Assembly: GCF_040529045.1 (NCBI RefSeq)
Contig: NZ_CP131914.1
Coordinates: 2,216,501 to 2,280,500, forward strand
DNA from: Xanthomonas indica
GTDB lineage: Bacteria; Pseudomonadota; Gammaproteobacteria; Xanthomonadales; Xanthomonadaceae
DNA length: 64,000 nucleotides
Reading direction: 5' to 3'
The notes under the pieces are model-generated. The model was given only the letters and a program-made list of their open reading frames with translations. It searched no databases and was not told the DNA's origin. The position numbers were made by a program, and so were the translations under genes. Within the stretch, counting starts at the first letter, position 1. Every line of letters begins with the position of its first letter. Positions 53,996 through 60,394 of this stretch are shown here, piece after piece.

Positions 53996-54949
53996 ATGAC
54001 GGTTCCTGCCATGACTGCGCGCATTCCCACCCTCGACATCACCCGTTTCGACACCGACCGCGAGGCGTTCGTCGCCGAGCTGGGCGCGGCCTACCGCGAG
54101 TGGGGCTTCGCCGGCATCCGCAACCACGGCATCGCCCAGGCGCAGATCGACGCCGCCTACGACGTGTTCAAGGCGTTCTTCGCCCTGCCCGAGGAGACCA
54201 AGCGCACCTACCACCTGCCGGGCAGCGGCGGTGCGCGCGGCTATACCGCCTTCGGCGTGGAGACCGCCAAGGACTCCAAGCACTTCGACCTGAAGGAGTT
54301 CTGGCACATCGGCCGCGAGATCGCCGACGACTCCCCGTACCGCGCCGTGATGCCGCCGAACCTGTGGCCGAGCGAAGTGCCCGGCTTCCGCGCACATGGC
54401 TACGGCCTGTACCAGGCGCTGGACCAGCTCGGCGCGCGCGTGCTGTCGGCGCTGGCCCTGCACATCGGCCTGCCCGAGCACTACTTCGTCGACAAGACCG
54501 ATTCGGGCAATTCGATCCTGCGCCCGATCCACTACCCGCCGATCACCGCCGACGACATCCCCAACGTGCGCGCCGGCGCCCACGAGGACATCAACCTGAT
54601 CACCCTGCTGGTCGGCGCCAGCGCCGCCGGCCTGGAAGTGAAGTCCAAGCAGGGCGAGTGGGTGCCGTTCACCTCCGACGCCGACACCATCGTGGTCAAC
54701 ATCGGCGACATGCTGCAGCGCCTGACCAACCACGTGTATCCCTCGACCACCCACCGCGTGGTCAACCCGCCGGGCGAGCAGGCGCGCCAGCCGCGCTACT
54801 CGGTGCCGTTCTTCCTGCACCCGAACCCGGATTTCGTGATCGACGTGCTGCCGTCCTGCGTCAGCGCCGACAACCCCAGCCGCTATCCCGAGCCGATCAC
54901 CGCGCAGGGCTATCTGGAAGAGCGCTTGCGCGAGATCAAGCTGAAGTAA
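53996..54949 (+). CDS. 2-oxoglutarate/Fe(II)-dependent oxygenase, isopenicillin N synthase family
   Basis: Soluble dioxygenase of 317 residues. The N-terminal DIOX_N part shows YREWGFAGIRNHGIAQAQID. The metal site is HED in AGAHEDINLITLLVGA plus the distal histidine in PSTTHRVVNP, and the substrate/oxoglutarate arginine is in RYSVPFFLHP. Length is standard for the family. The substrate is unknown: relatives act in antibiotic, hormone and amino-acid metabolism. ATG at 53996 is used; 54011 is an alternative. A GC-rich stem (TGCCGCCG/CGGCGGCA, about 54970-54995) follows. Confidence 0.9.
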   Translation: MTVPAMTARIPTLDITRFDTDREAFVAELGAAYREWGFAGIRNHGIAQAQIDAAYDVFKAFFALPEETKRTYHLPGSGGARGYTAFGVETAKDSKHFDLKEFWHIGREIADDSPYRAVMPPNLWPSEVPGFRAHGYGLYQALDQLGARVLSALALHIGLPEHYFVDKTDSGNSILRPIHYPPITADDIPNVRAGAHEDINLITLLVGASAAGLEVKSKQGEWVPFTSDADTIVVNIGDMLQRLTNHVYPSTTHRVVNPPGEQARQPRYSVPFFLHPNPDFVIDVLPSCVSADNPSRYPEPITAQGYLEERLREIKLK

Positions 54950-55105
54950 GCCGCGCCCGCAACGCTGCGTGCCGCCGCCGGGACGTCCGGCGGCAGGGCC
55001 GGCCTCAAGCCGGGTCCGTTCACGGCCGATATCGCTTGCAGGTCGCCCTCGACGCGCCGTCCGGGAGGTCCGGGCGCTGCCAGCCGGGCCCGTAGCGAGG
55101 GTGCG

Positions 55106-55807
55106 ATGACAAGGCGGACGGGATCGTTCTGGCGGCAGGGCCGCCGCCGCTGGCTTGCAGTGGTACTGGGCATGGCGGCGTTGCCGGCCGCGGCCACCCC
55201 GGTCACGGTGCTGGTGGCCGACGCCGCCGGTCCGCTGGCCGATGCCGTGGTCAGCCTGCAACCGACCGCGCCGGCGCGCCCGCCCGCGCCGGCCTCGGCG
55301 ACGGCGACGATGGACCAGGTCAACTCGCAGTTCGTGCCTGCGGTGCTGGCGGTGCAGGCCGGCAGCTGGGTGCGCTTTCCCAACAGCGACCAGATCCGCC
55401 ACCAGGTCTATTCCTTCTCGCCGGCCAAGCGCTTCGAACTGCCGCTGTACCAGGGCAGTACCGCCAAGCCGGTGCGCTTCGAGCAGGCGGGCCTGGTCAC
55501 GGTGGGCTGCAACATCCACGACTGGATGGTCGGCTACGTGGTGGTGCTGGACACCCCGTACTTCGCGGTGACCGGCGCCGACGCGCAGGTGCGGCTGGAG
55601 GTGCCGCCCGGCGCCTACGAACTGCGGGTGTGGCATCCGCGCCTGAGCGGCGCCGGCTACGCGCAGCCCCTGCAGGTGGCGCGCGCGCCGCTGCGCCAGG
55701 CGGTGCAGTTGGCCACGCACGGACCGGCGCCGGTCGTCCCGGAAGATCCGCGCATCCGCGCGCTGCAGGACAAGTTCCGCGGCAGCCAGACGGCGCCGAC
55801 CCGATGA
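55106..55807 (+). CDS. cupredoxin-like periplasmic protein (methylamine-utilisation-like)
   Basis: Exported protein of 233 residues. The signal peptide ends near residue 30 (LGMAALPAAA). The copper-site pattern of plastocyanin-like domains is present: DQIRHQVYSFSPAKRFELPL with His99, then LVTVGCNIHDWMVGYVVV with Cys135, His138 and Met141. The opening DQVNSQFVPAVLAVQAGSWV is the conserved block of the family often labelled methylamine utilisation protein, although no mau genes are here. A Pro/Ala-rich linker sits at about 55-68. Copper binding is inferred from the four residues. The stop overlaps the next start (ATGA). First gene of the four-gene cluster. Confidence 0.82.
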   Translation: MTRRTGSFWRQGRRRWLAVVLGMAALPAAATPVTVLVADAAGPLADAVVSLQPTAPARPPAPASATATMDQVNSQFVPAVLAVQAGSWVRFPNSDQIRHQVYSFSPAKRFELPLYQGSTAKPVRFEQAGLVTVGCNIHDWMVGYVVVLDTPYFAVTGADAQVRLEVPPGAYELRVWHPRLSGAGYAQPLQVARAPLRQAVQLATHGPAPVVPEDPRIRALQDKFRGSQTAPTR

Positions 55808-58176
55808 AGCCGTGGCGGTTGCACACCCGCATCGCCGCGCTGCTGGTGCTGGTGGTGCTGGCGGCCCAGGCGCTGACGTTCCTGGCGGTGCACGTGGCGA
55901 CCCAGCGCAGCGTCGCCGCGCAACTGGACGACGAATTGCGCACGGGCGAGCGCGTGTGGCAGCGCATCGACCAGCGCCGCGACGAGCAGTTGCTGCAGGC
56001 CGCCTCGGTGCTCGCCGACGACTTCGGCTTCCGCGCCGCGGTGACCAGCGGCGACGTGCCGACCATGCAATCGGCGCTGCGCAACCACGCCGCGCGGGTG
56101 CGCGCGCCCAGCGCTCTGCTGCTGTCGGCCGACGGCCAGTTCCTGGCCGGGCTGTCGGCGCTGCCGCAGGCGCAGCAACTGCGTGCGGTGCAGCCGCTGC
56201 TGCGGCAGGCGCAGCGCAACGGCAGCGCGGTCGGCATCGTGCTGCTGGACCGGCGCCTCATGCGTCTGGCGCTGGTGCAGGTGCTGGCGCCGCAACGGGT
56301 CGGCTGGGTCGCGATCGGCGGGGAATCCGGCGACGAGCTCGGCCAGGACTTCGTCGGGACCACCGGGCTGGACGCGACCTTCTTCACCACCCAGGGCGCG
56401 CCGCAGGTGCTGGCCTCGACCCTGGATCCGCTGCGCGCCGCGCAGTTCCAGCAGCAACTGCGGCGCACGCCGCTGGCGCCGGCGGCCGCGCAGCCGCTGC
56501 AGCTGGGGCAGGCACGCTACCTGTTGCGGGTGCGGCCGGCGTCCGACGACGGCCGGGTCATGGTCGCGCTGCAGGCCTCGCTGGACCGCGCCGATGCGCC
56601 GTACCGCCTGCTGAAGCTGCGCATCCTGATCCTGGCCGGCGTGGCCACGCTGGCCGCGCTGGTGGCGGCGATCTTCCTGGCGCGCGGGGTCAGCCGCCCG
56701 GTCGCGCAACTGGTCGCAGCGACGCGGCGCATCCAGCACGGCGACTATCAGGCGCTGCTGCCGCTGCACGCCGGCGCCGAACTGACCGAACTGGCCAGCA
56801 GCTTCGGCGCCATGCAGCGCCGCATCGCCCGCCGCGAGCAGGACATCCTGCACCAGGCGCGGCACGATGCGCTGACCGGGCTGCCCAACCGCACGGCGCT
56901 GCTGCAGCACCTGCAGGCCGTGGTCGAGGCCTGCCAGGCCGATGCCAGCACCGCCGCAGTGCTGGTGCTGGACCTGGAGCGCTTCAAGGAACTCAACGAC
57001 AGCTTCGGCCACGATTTCGCCGATCAGGTGCTGGTCCATACCGGGCGTCGGCTGGAACAGGCGGTGCGCGCGCCGGACCGGGTCGGCCGGCTTGGCAGCG
57101 ACGAATTCATGGTAGTGCTGGCGCACACCGATGCCGCCGCGGTGGAGGCCTATGCCGCCGAACTGCTGGCGCAATTGCGGCACCCGTTGAGCCTGCCGCA
57201 GGCGCGGATCCTGGCCGACGCCAGCATCGGCATCGCGCTGATTCCCGCGCATGGCGCCGATGCCGACACCCTGCTGCGCCGCGCCGACATCGCTCGCCAG
57301 CAGGCGCGACAACACGGCGGCGGCGCATCGGTGTACCGCGACGGCCAGGACGAGCAGCACCTGCGCCGCCTGCGCCTGACCGGCGACCTGCGCCAGGCGA
57401 TCGCGCGCGGCGAGATGTCGCTGCGTTTCCAGCCGAAGATCTGCCTGGCGCGCGGCGTGGTCGAACACGTGGAGGTGTTGCTGCGTTGGCAGCATCCGCT
57501 GCTCGGCCCGATCGGGCCGGACGAGTTCATTGCGCTGGCCGAGCACTCCGGCGCGATCCAGCAACTCACCCAGTTCGTGCTCGACGAGGCGATGCGCCTG
57601 CAGGCGCAGTGGCGCGGCCAGGGCCTGGATCTGGGCCTGGCGGTGAACCTGTCGGCGCTGGACCTCAACGATCCTGGCCTGCCGGCCTTCGTCAGCGGCT
57701 GCCTGGCGCGGCACGGCCTGGCCGCGCCGCGGCTGACCCTGGAACTGACCGAAAGCGCGCTGATGCGCGACGTCGAGCACGCCCTGCACATGCTGCAGCA
57801 GCTGCGCCGCTGCGGCGTGCGCCTGTCCATCGACGACTTCGGTACCGGCTATTCGTCGCTGGCGCAGCTCAAGCGCATGCCGGTGCACGAACTGAAGATC
57901 GACAAGAGCTTCGTGTTGCAATTGGCCGCGGGCAGCGACGACGCGGTGATCGTGCGCAGTACCATCGACCTGGGCCACCACATGGGCTTGCAGGTGGTGG
58001 CCGAGGGCGTCGAGCACGCCGCCGCGGAGGCCTTGCTGCGCAGCTACGGCTGCGACATGGCGCAGGGCTATCTGTACGCGCCGCCGCTGGATGCGCCGGC
58101 GCTGCTGGCCTGGTGTGCGCGGCGCGCGGAGGACGGTGCGACCACGCCGGCCCCGATCGAGGAGACGTCCCGATGA
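55804..58176 (+). CDS. membrane GGDEF-EAL protein with periplasmic sensor region and HAMP
   Basis: c-di-GMP signalling protein of 790 residues. Helix one (IAALLVLVVLAAQALTFLAV), a periplasmic region of about 235 residues, helix two (ILILAGVATLAALVAAIFLA), a HAMP-like linker (RGVSRPVAQLVAATRRIQHG), a GGDEF domain at about 360-510 and an EAL domain at about 525-775. The GGDEF signature reads GSDEF (residues 431-435), one residue off, so cyclase activity is doubtful. EAL reads EVL (557-559) but the other phosphodiesterase residues are kept: VNLSALDLND, LELTES, DDFGTGYSSL, KIDKSF, AEGVEH, QGY. It most likely hydrolyses c-di-GMP. Coupled to both neighbours by 4-base overlaps. Confidence 0.92.
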   Translation: MKPWRLHTRIAALLVLVVLAAQALTFLAVHVATQRSVAAQLDDELRTGERVWQRIDQRRDEQLLQAASVLADDFGFRAAVTSGDVPTMQSALRNHAARVRAPSALLLSADGQFLAGLSALPQAQQLRAVQPLLRQAQRNGSAVGIVLLDRRLMRLALVQVLAPQRVGWVAIGGESGDELGQDFVGTTGLDATFFTTQGAPQVLASTLDPLRAAQFQQQLRRTPLAPAAAQPLQLGQARYLLRVRPASDDGRVMVALQASLDRADAPYRLLKLRILILAGVATLAALVAAIFLARGVSRPVAQLVAATRRIQHGDYQALLPLHAGAELTELASSFGAMQRRIARREQDILHQARHDALTGLPNRTALLQHLQAVVEACQADASTAAVLVLDLERFKELNDSFGHDFADQVLVHTGRRLEQAVRAPDRVGRLGSDEFMVVLAHTDAAAVEAYAAELLAQLRHPLSLPQARILADASIGIALIPAHGADADTLLRRADIARQQARQHGGGASVYRDGQDEQHLRRLRLTGDLRQAIARGEMSLRFQPKICLARGVVEHVEVLLRWQHPLLGPIGPDEFIALAEHSGAIQQLTQFVLDEAMRLQAQWRGQGLDLGLAVNLSALDLNDPGLPAFVSGCLARHGLAAPRLTLELTESALMRDVEHALHMLQQLRRCGVRLSIDDFGTGYSSLAQLKRMPVHELKIDKSFVLQLAAGSDDAVIVRSTIDLGHHMGLQVVAEGVEHAAAEALLRSYGCDMAQGYLYAPPLDAPALLAWCARRAEDGATTPAPIEETSR

Positions 58177-59042
58177 CCCGACCCCGATCTCCACGATGCG
58201 CGCTGCTGGCGGTCGCGGCCTTGCTGCCGGGGCTGGCGTGGGCCGGGCAGGGGCGGCTGCTGGCCACCGGCGGCGCCTCCAGCGTGGAAGGCAGCGGCGG
58301 TGGCGGCATCGTGCCGTGGGCGACCTTGTCCGGCTACGGCACGCGCGATCAGGACGGCGCGGTGCTGTTCGCCACGCACGTGGACAGCGGCGATTACCGG
58401 CTGGACGTGCAGGGGGCGGCGCTGACCCTGGGCAACCGCCTGGAGCTGTCGCTGGCGCGGCAGCGCCTGGACCTGGGCACGTTGCAGCGGCGCCTGGCGC
58501 TGCCGTGGCATGCGCTCGGCCAGGACGTGATTGGCGCCAAGCTGCGGCTGGGCGGCGACCTGGTCTACGGCGCCGCGCCGCAGGTGGCGCTGGGGGTGCA
58601 GTACAAGCGGCTGCGCGACGGCAGCTTGCCGTTGGCGGTCGGCGCGCGCGCCGACCATGGCACCGACGTCTATCTCAGCGCCGCCAAGCTGTGGCTGGAC
58701 GCGGCCGGCGGCTACCAGTTGCTGGTCAACGGCACCCTGCGCGCCACCCGCGCCAACCAGGCCGGACTGCTCGGGTTCGGCGGCGATCGCGGCAATGCCT
58801 ACCGGCTGGTGGTCGAGGCCAGCGTCGCGGTGGTACTCGACCCGTCGTGGGTGCTGGGCCTGGAATACCGGCAGAAGCCGGACAACCTCGGGTTCGCCCG
58901 CGAGGATGCCTGGGCGGATGCGTTCGTGGCATGGTTCCCGAACAAGCGCGTGTCCGTGGTCGGCGCCTGGGCCGACCTCGGGGACGTCGCCACCCTGCGC
59001 GACCAGCGTGGGCCCTATCTCTCCCTGCAGGTGGCGTTCTGA
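58173..59042 (+). CDS. DUF3034 family exported protein
   Basis: Exported protein of 289 residues. A signal peptide (ALLAVAALLPGLAWA, to about residue 24) is followed by GQGRLLATGGASSVEGSGGG and GIVPWATLSGYG, the DUF3034 opening. The rest alternates short beta-rich segments (LVYGAAPQVALGVQYKRL, WVLGLEYRQKPDNLGFA) ending in a phenylalanine (LSLQVAF), which suggests an outer-membrane beta-barrel. Function is unknown. It starts inside the GGDEF-EAL stop (ATGA) and ends 1 base before the haemoglobin gene. Confidence 0.85.
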   Translation: MTRPRSPRCALLAVAALLPGLAWAGQGRLLATGGASSVEGSGGGGIVPWATLSGYGTRDQDGAVLFATHVDSGDYRLDVQGAALTLGNRLELSLARQRLDLGTLQRRLALPWHALGQDVIGAKLRLGGDLVYGAAPQVALGVQYKRLRDGSLPLAVGARADHGTDVYLSAAKLWLDAAGGYQLLVNGTLRATRANQAGLLGFGGDRGNAYRLVVEASVAVVLDPSWVLGLEYRQKPDNLGFAREDAWADAFVAWFPNKRVSVVGAWADLGDVATLRDQRGPYLSLQVAF

Positions 59043-59043
59043 C

Positions 59044-59487
59044 ATGGCCAGGCCGATGCGCGTCCTGATCCTGATCCTGCTGGCGACGGCCGCGCTGCTG
59101 GCCGGCTGCGCCAGCGCCCCGCGGCCGCCGCGCACGCTGTACGCCGACCTGGGTGGCCAGCCCGGCATCGAGGCGCTGGTGGAGACGCTGCTGTCGCGCA
59201 TCGCCGATGACCCGCGCATCGTCCAGCACTTCGCCCGGGTCAACATCGTGATGCTGGACCAGCGCCTGGTGCAGAAGTTCTGCCACCTCAGCGACGGGCC
59301 GTGCGCCGATACCGCCAAGCCGATGAAGCAGGCGCACCAGCATCTGCCGATCCACGAGGCGGACTTCAACGCGCTGGTCGAGGACCTGGTGTGGGCGATG
59401 GACCAGCGCGGCATCCCGCGCCGCGTGCAGAACCGGTTGCTGGCCAGGCTGGCGCCGCTGCACGGCGATATCGTCAACCAGCCCTAG
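59044..59487 (+). CDS. group I truncated haemoglobin with lipoprotein signal
   Basis: Small haemoglobin of 147 residues. The first 22 residues are a lipoprotein signal (LILILLATAALLAGC, lipidation at Cys22), not usual for this normally cytoplasmic family. The trHb1 fold follows: TLYADLGGQPGIEALVETLL, then KPMKQAHQHLPIHEADFNAL, where His98 is the expected haem-ligating F8 histidine. Two cysteines (80 and 87) lie between. A role in O2, NO or redox chemistry in the envelope is inferred. It is the last gene of the cluster, one base after the DUF3034 stop. Confidence 0.87.
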   Translation: MARPMRVLILILLATAALLAGCASAPRPPRTLYADLGGQPGIEALVETLLSRIADDPRIVQHFARVNIVMLDQRLVQKFCHLSDGPCADTAKPMKQAHQHLPIHEADFNALVEDLVWAMDQRGIPRRVQNRLLARLAPLHGDIVNQP

Positions 59488-59593
59488 GGCGTGTCACCCA
59501 TTCCCGAGTAGGCCGCGTCGGGTCTGGCGGGCGCGCTGCCGGCGTTGCGCGGCGCGATACCGGACCGCGCTCGCCGGGCCGGCAGGTCGCGGG

Positions 59594-60394
59594 CTATTCC
59601 ACCGACCTGATCCGATGCGAGCCACGCCCCATCAGGCGCAGCAGCAGGGCATTGGGCAACAGCGCGGTCAGGCCGAGCAGGGCGCGGTACACCGCACCCG
59701 GCACCACCCGCACCTTGCCGCGTTCGGCGCCGTCGATGCCGGCGCGGGCCACGGCCGCGGTCTGCAGCCAGATCCAGCGCGGCAGGGCGTTCATCTGGTC
59801 GCGGGTGCCGGTGACGTCGTGGAACTCGGACCAGGTGAAGCCGGGGCACAGCGCGCACACGCCGACCCCGCGGTCGGCGTTCTCCAGGGCCAGCGACTCG
59901 CTGAAGCGCAGCATGAAGCTCTTCGCCGCCGCGTACAGGGTGTGGCCGTCGGCACCGGGCACCAGGGCGGCGAACGAGGCCACGTTGAGGATGCGGCCGT
60001 GGCCGCTGGCGCGCAGCGACGGCAGCAGCCGCCAGGTCAGTTCGCACACCGCGCCGACCATCACCTGCAGGAACGCCGCGTGCACCGCCCAGTCCTGGGC
60101 GATGTAGCGGCCGGGCACGCCGTAGCCGGCGTTGTTGACCAGGATCCGCACCGCCAGCCCGCGCCGTTCCAGCTCCGCCACCAGCGCCGCCGGCGCCGCC
60201 GGGTCGGCCAGGTCGGCGACCAGCACCTCCACTGGCACCTGCGGCCGCAGCTCGGCGGCCAGCGCCTGCAGTTGTGCCTCGCGGCGCGCCGTCAGGATCA
60301 GCGGGACGCCGCGGCGGGCGTATTCGCGGGCGATCTCGCGGCCGATGCCGCTGGAGGCGCCGGTGATCAGGGCGTAGCCGGGAAGCTGGGTCAT
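59594..60394 (-). CDS. short-chain dehydrogenase/reductase
   Basis: Cytoplasmic SDR of 266 residues. The nucleotide-binding motif is TGASSGIGREIAREYARRGV, the NNAG motif is ILVNNAGYGVPGR, the catalytic serine lies in LNVASFAALVPG and the YxxxK pair in YAAAKSFMLRFSESLA. TARREAQLQAL after the second strand suggests NADP(H). The C-terminal hydrophobic stretch (LLGLTALLPNALLLRLMG) may associate with membrane. Substrate unknown. It is convergent with the haemoglobin cluster and divergent from tpiA. Confidence 0.9.
   Translation of the reverse strand: MTQLPGYALITGASSGIGREIAREYARRGVPLILTARREAQLQALAAELRPQVPVEVLVADLADPAAPAALVAELERRGLAVRILVNNAGYGVPGRYIAQDWAVHAAFLQVMVGAVCELTWRLLPSLRASGHGRILNVASFAALVPGADGHTLYAAAKSFMLRFSESLALENADRGVGVCALCPGFTWSEFHDVTGTRDQMNALPRWIWLQTAAVARAGIDGAERGKVRVVPGAVYRALLGLTALLPNALLLRLMGRGSHRIRSVE

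Follow-up and report, generated by a model that had tools for sequence, protein, structure and literature searches.

In Vibrio cholerae, the polyamine-binding periplasmic protein NspS, whose gene adjoins that of the membrane GGDEF-EAL enzyme MbaA, controls this enzyme via its periplasmic domain. The YfiBNR operon of Pseudomonas aeruginosa combines an outer-membrane lipoprotein, a periplasmic protein and an inner-membrane enzyme of cyclic diguanosine monophosphate (c-di-GMP) metabolism. In Escherichia coli, PdeH (YhjH) is a cytoplasmic EAL phosphodiesterase of the FliA regulon that has neither sensor nor partners. Outside signalling, in Cyc2–rusticyanin and Mtr-type conduits, a haem protein and an outer-membrane barrel pass on to a periplasmic redox protein, which is a cupredoxin in the case of Cyc2. 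Here we describe a cluster of four genes from Xanthomonas indica which resembles each of these systems in part. It lies at positions 55106–59487 (+ strand) of a 64,000-nucleotide stretch of NZ_CP131914.1 (the window; the genome is a single contig of 4.81 Mb), and codes for an exported cupredoxin (CUP), a dCache-HAMP-GGDEF-EAL enzyme, a protein of the DUF3034 family and a lipoprotein globin.

The conserved module is CUP together with a sensor protein whose output is interchangeable, often accompanied by a barrel-like protein, and the branch that contains DUF3034 adds the globin. We propose that the cluster of X. indica belongs to the flagellar regulon and is an operon for sensing across the envelope, a relay that would set the breakdown of c-di-GMP in flagellated cells. 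We give this reading a probability of about 50%.

Conservation and linkage of the four genes

The genes are tightly packed: those of CUP (55106–55807) and of the EAL enzyme (55804–58176) overlap by 4 bases (ATGA), the latter and the DUF3034 gene (58173–59042) also overlap by 4 bases, and a 1-base gap separates DUF3034 from the globin gene (59044–59487). The coordinates of the open reading frames (ORFs) thus agree with a preliminary description of this DNA as regards gene set, order and junctions.

Of the 398 genomes sampled from the phylum, 39 contain DUF3034 (33 in the own class, 6 elsewhere in the phylum); it is present in 0 of 14 control genomes. Outside the own genome, the globin gene adjoins that of DUF3034 in 38 of 38 genomes, and all four genes are linked in 29 of them, in the order CUP, EAL, DUF3034, globin (22 genomes), in a divergent arrangement of EAL-CUP and DUF3034-globin (6) or in the order DUF3034, globin, CUP, EAL (1). 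The nine partial sets are DUF3034-globin (5), DUF3034-globin-CUP (2), CUP-DUF3034-globin (1) and EAL-DUF3034-globin (1). Where the DUF3034-globin locus is devoid of CUP, CUP is encoded elsewhere in the genome in 5 of 6 cases (G213, G126, G389, G225 and G261, not G078). The four families are therefore not mostly apart in related genomes, a possibility that the preliminary description had held against its own proposal. The 80 best named loci out of 583 relatives, a selection that leans to close kin, also keep the gene order of the window in 77 cases; Pseudomonas chlororaphis (L123) and Stutzerimonas zhaodongensis (L110) are examples of species with the cluster. In the three other loci (L109, L114 and L120), the sequence starts so near to the DUF3034 ORF (565, 2203 and 30 bases upstream of it, respectively) that the missing genes may have been cut off; no trace of the EAL gene was detected in L114.

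The linkage of DUF3034 with the globin and with CUP is far beyond chance. A strong globin match (at least 143 bits) occurs in 39 of the 39 DUF3034 genomes and in 2 of the 359 genomes without DUF3034 (Fisher p 5e-52), and CUP (at least 130 bits) in 38 of 39 and 13 of 359, respectively (p 9e-41); these counts were made by hand from listings and the Fisher tests ignore kinship. The globin model matches at least 130 of the 398 genomes; the listed matches of 143 bits or more are confined to DUF3034 genomes save G154 and G328, and the next listed match scores 93 bits. In these two genomes, where DUF3034 is not matched, the strong relatives of the globin are L212 (G154) and L213 (G328); a CUP-kinase pair is encoded elsewhere in G154. 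In G078, a second copy of the DUF3034-globin pair (G078:C3:72188-73313) is broken by internal stops, and an intact pair is present elsewhere. DUF3034 occurs in 12 named Xanthomonas records; in our sample of the genus, the same six of 20 genomes have DUF3034 and the globin, and the five of them other than the own genome hold all four genes.

The cupredoxin and its sensor partners

CUP has 233 amino acids, and its match to sequence families is weak and below cut-off (Cupredoxin_1 of Pfam, E-value 0.083; amicyanin of NCBIfam, E 0.0042). Its AlphaFold2 model, whose mean predicted local distance difference test score (pLDDT) is 90.1, resembles amicyanin (PDB 1sfd, best E 3.3e-06), pseudoazurin and other cupredoxins, and we assign CUP to the cupredoxin fold on the basis of this model. 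It is not amicyanin proper (TIGR02657), for which it scores 17.4 bits against a curated cut-off of 110.2. The full His-Cys-His-Met ligand set of type-1 cupredoxins is present: His99 (55400–55402) and Cys135, His138 and Met141 in the motif CNIHDWM (55508–55528) are kept in 114 of 114 aligned sequences and in 96 of 96 CUPs of a wider set, irrespective of the output of the neighbouring sensor. CUP is therefore expected to bind copper. The alignments behind these and the following residue counts of the EAL enzyme and the globin hold 114 CUP, 112 EAL and 123 globin sequences, with some loci doubled (L079/L081, L046/L110, L039/L128 and L038/L141).

The gene that overlaps that of CUP codes for a protein of 790 amino acids. 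Pfam detects a periplasmic dCache_3 sensor (residues 35–212, 55906–56439; PF14827, E 2.6e-07, 30.9 bits for a cut-off of 25.7), a HAMP domain, a GGDEF domain (56857–57321) and an EAL domain (57385–58086; PF00563, E 2.8e-68). The GGDEF domain has GSDEF in place of the GG[DE]EF of active diguanylate cyclases, and the first two positions of the motif vary among the 112 relatives. The EAL residues that we take to be catalytic are kept: E557, N615, D677, D678, K698 and E734 in 112 of 112 sequences, Q754 in 111 and E647 in at least 95%. The protein is thus probably a c-di-GMP phosphodiesterase. A second GGDEF-EAL gene is found just upstream of CUP in several loci of Pseudomonas (L038, L039, L111, L118, L125, L128, L130, L135, L140, L141, L149 and L150); that of L038 is HAMP-GGDEF-EAL according to Pfam, and the N-terminal part of the extra protein in L038 and L039 matches the same dCache/HAMP-type sensor profile. 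In L123 and L126, an extra GGDEF-EAL gene lies downstream of the globin gene.

We surveyed the surroundings of every CUP match of at least 130 bits outside the own genus, in samples of 398 genomes from the phylum, 142 from the class to which G303 belongs and 369 from the own class, which gave 80 places; the window and five loci of the own genus (L076–L080) are excluded from these counts. With a sensor defined by our own dCache/HAMP-type profile (at least 25 bits), 68 of the 80 loci have a sensor gene at most 1 kb from CUP, and in 66 of these both genes are on the same strand. By comparison, no sensor gene is present in the 627 kb of flanks of loci L038–L160 at distances above 3.5 kb from the genes of the cluster. 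The outputs of the 68 sensors differ: 57 are GGDEF-EAL proteins (own profile), seven are class III cyclases (7 of 7 confirmed by Pfam), two are Ser/Thr kinases (L211 and L233, by Pfam), one is a histidine kinase (L224, by Pfam) and one is a fragment of 363 amino acids (L225). In L233, DUF3034 itself adjoins the CUP-kinase pair. Among 16 loci with more distant CUPs (70–130 bits), Ser/Thr kinases are found next to CUP at four more loci, and hybrid histidine kinases one gene away at two. Three loci (L249, L250 and L251) hold a distant group of cupredoxins (76–82 bits) with no sensor, preceded by an ORF of 770–838 amino acids; the three ORFs are similar at their start.

Since the output of the sensor beside CUP varies, CUP tracks the sensor and not c-di-GMP. 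A quick tree of CUP (83 rows; four rows without the anchor motif, L242, L243, L244 and L252, were left out) requires at least 7 output changes among the rows that have a sensor. The strongest argument for CUP acting on the sensor domain is that the copper partner stays the same when the outputs change. An adjacent ORF of 240–520 amino acids with a barrel-type C-terminus is present at 19 of 40 CUP loci without DUF3034, compared to 4 of 316 ORFs further away, a rough comparison of loci with ORFs. Some of these barrel-type ORFs score weakly, below cut-off, for Porin_4 or BBP2, and others do not score. The preliminary description had taken copper, haem and c-di-GMP as one conserved unit; this view has to be revised, since CUP follows a dCache/HAMP-type sensor whatever its output and the globin follows DUF3034.

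The DUF3034 protein and the globin

The third product (Pfam DUF3034, E 5.3e-110) belongs to a family that Pfam classes as of unknown function. In the open-access literature, the excerpts available mention DUF3034 in a figure legend on retrons, other panels of which say DUF3037, and in a gene table of Streptomyces. The structure model is a barrel of antiparallel strands and the sequence ends with an aromatic residue, as in outer-membrane beta-barrel channels, and we predict that DUF3034 is a 12-strand channel of the outer membrane. The channels FapF and COG4313 (PDB 5o65 and 4rl8), which we compare with DUF3034 as regards structure, are 10–11% identical to it. A conserved Gly-rich N-terminal segment (residues 32–50, 58266–58322), where T32, G34, G40 and G43–45 are invariant in 20 sequences, lies within a region of low confidence (residues 18–56, pLDDT below 50); it may be a plug or a docking segment.

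The fourth product is a truncated globin of 147 amino acids (PF01152, Bac_globin, E 4.3e-13), of group 1 as judged from the Bac_globin score (50 vs 21 bits) and from the conservation of His98. Its best match in the PDB is HbN of Mycobacterium tuberculosis (E 4.3e-12), from which it differs in being an exported lipoprotein, in having a Cys pair and in lacking TyrB10. The lipobox (LAGC, Cys22 at 59107–59109, followed by Ala) has its Cys aligned in 110 of 123 relatives; a motif search finds 112 lipoboxes, where Asp is never the residue after Cys. Cys80 and Cys87 (59281–59304), each present in 122 of 123 sequences, probably form a disulphide. His98 (59335–59337; 123 of 123) aligns with the His of MKQVHQG in HbN, which we take to be the proximal haem ligand, and the globin is expected to bind haem. 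The column of TyrB10, presumably the distal residue needed for the O2 and nitric oxide (NO) chemistry of HbN, is occupied by Leu50 in the window and by Leu, Val, Ile, Met or Asn in the 123 relatives (7 of which have Tyr one position further on), which makes HbN-like binding of O2 unlikely. A function as an HbN-type NO dioxygenase is not supported, for the same lack of the distal Tyr.

A sigma28-type promoter site

The best clue to the setting of the cluster, overlooked in the preliminary description, is a sigma28 (FliA)-type promoter site, TCAAG-N15-GCCGATA (55005–55031, + strand), which ends 74 bases before the start of CUP. It is the sole match with at most one mismatch in the window, where 0.03 are expected. 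Neither a sigma70-type promoter nor an intrinsic terminator was detected at 54900–59700. Transcription would start from the sigma28-type site. The genome has six exact sites of this type (A or C at position 2, spacing 15), and none for the reversed pattern. The other five are found 104 bases before fliS, over the first start of a CheW-receiver (CheV-like) ORF, 33 bases before a Cache-HAMP protein that resembles a chemoreceptor (first 489 residues scanned), and 133 and 7 bases before two Reg_prop-GGDEF genes. The latter encode Reg_prop-Y_Y_Y-GGDEF proteins (L263:1396-4350 and L264:615-3746), so that possible diguanylate cyclases and a phosphodiesterase may share the flagellar regulon.

Among 113 cluster loci, which include some of the doubled ones, the site has no mismatch in 16 and at most two in 54, compared to 0 and about 4 in shuffled sequences. 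The 16 loci are all from Xanthomonas (one strain is counted twice; position 2 may be A or C); their spacer differs by subgroup while the boxes are constant. Many Pseudomonas loci have a form with a 14-base spacer and one or two mismatches. Searches with consensus strings, the form of all our regulator box patterns, gave 46 matches upstream of CUP for a loose sigma28 pattern (20.1 in shuffles) and 5 for sigma54 (0.6 in shuffles). The cluster thus probably belongs to the FliA regulon.

Directly upstream, on the same strand, the ORF at 53996–54949 resembles a 2-oxoglutarate/Fe(II) oxygenase, as judged by eye from its translation. CUP, DUF3034 and the globin match no PHROGs family at E 0.01, and a phage origin is not suggested.

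Proposed mechanism and alternatives

In the relay that we propose, sigma28 would switch the cluster on in cells that are building flagella. In the outer membrane, DUF3034 would form a channel, and the lipid anchor of the globin would hold it in the same membrane, beside or inside this channel. CUP would be the periplasmic messenger. Bound to the dCache domain of the enzyme in the inner membrane, it would set the activity of the EAL phosphodiesterase according to whether it carries copper or to its redox state; the level of c-di-GMP, and hence the decision to swim or to settle, would follow. The gene set and its linkage, the kept ligands and catalytic residues, the barrel and cupredoxin folds, the promoter-like site and the varied output beside CUP come from sequences or models, whereas cofactor loading, transcription from the site, the docking of CUP, the direction of the signal and the nature of the stimulus are what we infer. 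We tentatively favour a stimulus of the redox type, where the haem at the outer membrane would hand electrons or a redox-active ligand on to copper, given that the two expected cofactors are both redox-active and that no regulator box for O2, NO or copper was seen; we take this to be the likeliest signal, with a probability well below one half.

Several observations weigh against this proposal. The EAL gene is missing from 8 of the 38 DUF3034 loci, and DUF3034 and the globin stand alone in 5. In the own genus, 14 of 20 genomes have neither DUF3034 nor the globin, a patchy distribution. No sensor of the type considered is found within 1 kb of CUP in 12 of 80 loci (one is cut by the end of a contig). 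Support is weak for 30 of the 80 inner branches in the tree of CUP, and the well-supported ones by themselves force only 2 changes, of the cyclase label. The translation starts of the CheV-like ORF and of one other ORF are uncertain, since the site overlaps the former and lies 7 bases before the latter. Upstream of CUPs without DUF3034, the sigma28-type site is weakly enriched at best (7 of 39 with at most two mismatches, 2.6 in shuffles). Last, boxes that would point to a stimulus are not enriched upstream of CUP in the 113 loci relative to shuffles: FNR/ANR 9 vs 11.2, CRP 11 vs 12.2, CueR-like 11 vs 8.9; the same holds for CopR-like (20 vs 21.7), FleQ (1 vs 2.2) and NarL (1 vs 0.9) boxes.

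The signal may be copper itself: the channel would admit copper, loaded CUP would signal to the dCache domain, the globin would be an accessory and motility would follow the copper supply. We consider this unlikely, given that neither CueR-like nor CopR-like boxes are enriched, that the known type-1 copper proteins use these sites to transfer electrons, and that the company of the globin and DUF3034 in 39 of 39 genomes is left unexplained. That same company, the invariant His98 and the Cys pair speak for a sensor of O2 or NO, in which the outer-membrane globin would bind the gas and its state would be relayed via CUP to the enzyme. Such a sensor is nevertheless improbable: no globin is detected near CUP at 41 of the 80 CUP loci, 32 of which have a sensor, the TyrB10 column is devoid of Tyr, and ANR/FNR boxes are not enriched. 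The preliminary description had suggested O2, NO or the redox state as the stimulus, which is unproven, considering the lack of enriched FNR/ANR or CueR boxes and of TyrB10.

It may also be that the products have separate functions and share a transcript, with timing as the sole link, the DUF3034-globin pair being devoted to scavenging or transport and the CUP-EAL pair being independent. The 5 of 38 loci where DUF3034 and the globin are alone, the 22 of 80 CUP loci that have a GGDEF-EAL sensor and no DUF3034 nearby, and the divergent orientation at 6 of 38 loci would all fit. On the contrary, the presence of CUP, in cis or in trans, in nearly all DUF3034 genomes (38 of 39) and in few of the others (13 of 359) speaks against independent functions, and so does the CUP-kinase pair that DUF3034 adjoins in L233; we hold this explanation to be of low probability as well. 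Returning to the relay across the envelope, we raise as a speculative generalization the idea of cupredoxin-coupled receptors, a general class in which receptors of the dCache/HAMP type would share a type-1 copper protein as co-receptor, although their outputs are of at least four kinds (c-di-GMP phosphodiesterase, class III nucleotide cyclase, Ser/Thr kinase and histidine kinase). In the DUF3034 branch, the outer-membrane channel and the haem lipoprotein would then make up a conduit from haem to copper, by which the flagellar programme would be informed of redox chemistry outside the cell; it would not feed respiration.

Comparison with known systems

What stands of the preliminary description is a conserved, tightly packed envelope set whose end point is probably a c-di-GMP phosphodiesterase; the alignments show that the copper ligands and a candidate proximal His are conserved as well. 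Its statement that it knew of no described system with this gene set agrees with the open-access literature that we searched, in which we found no description of the four-gene operon. The available part of a paper on iron oxidisers (PMC3770913) mentions truncated globins and GGDEF/EAL genes, and no such operon is described there.

DUF3034 is now tied to a globin, a copper protein and, mostly, a c-di-GMP enzyme, and gains a predicted fold and a probable regulon. This gives a testable route by which the chemistry at the cell surface could decide whether cells swim or settle. Should CUP and the sensor pair physically, several second-messenger and kinase systems would have a copper protein in common as a co-receptor in signalling.

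Principles of a related kind are already known from NspS-MbaA, YfiBNR and PdeH. As in NspS-MbaA, a periplasmic protein is encoded beside a membrane GGDEF-EAL enzyme, but the partner is here a type-1 copper protein, not a polyamine-binding one, and an outer-membrane channel and a globin are added. The association of an outer-membrane lipoprotein, a periplasmic protein and an inner-membrane c-di-GMP enzyme is reminiscent of YfiBNR, whereas the predicted output is here a phosphodiesterase. None of the four products matches the YfiB or YfiR families in Pfam or NCBIfam (for the EAL protein, among the 25 of 40 NCBIfam matches listed), and among these listed matches the DgcN/YfiN scores of the EAL protein are far below cut-off. 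Like PdeH, the enzyme is an EAL phosphodiesterase placed in the FliA regulon, here by its promoter-type site; unlike PdeH, it has a sensor domain and partner genes. The four translations contain no CXXCH haem motif by inspection, as opposed to Mtr-type multihaem proteins. The predicted combination of a haem protein, an outer-membrane barrel and a periplasmic cupredoxin is that of Cyc2–rusticyanin, with the difference from this and from the Mtr-type conduits that the haem protein would be of the globin type and that the end point would be a signalling enzyme, not respiration.

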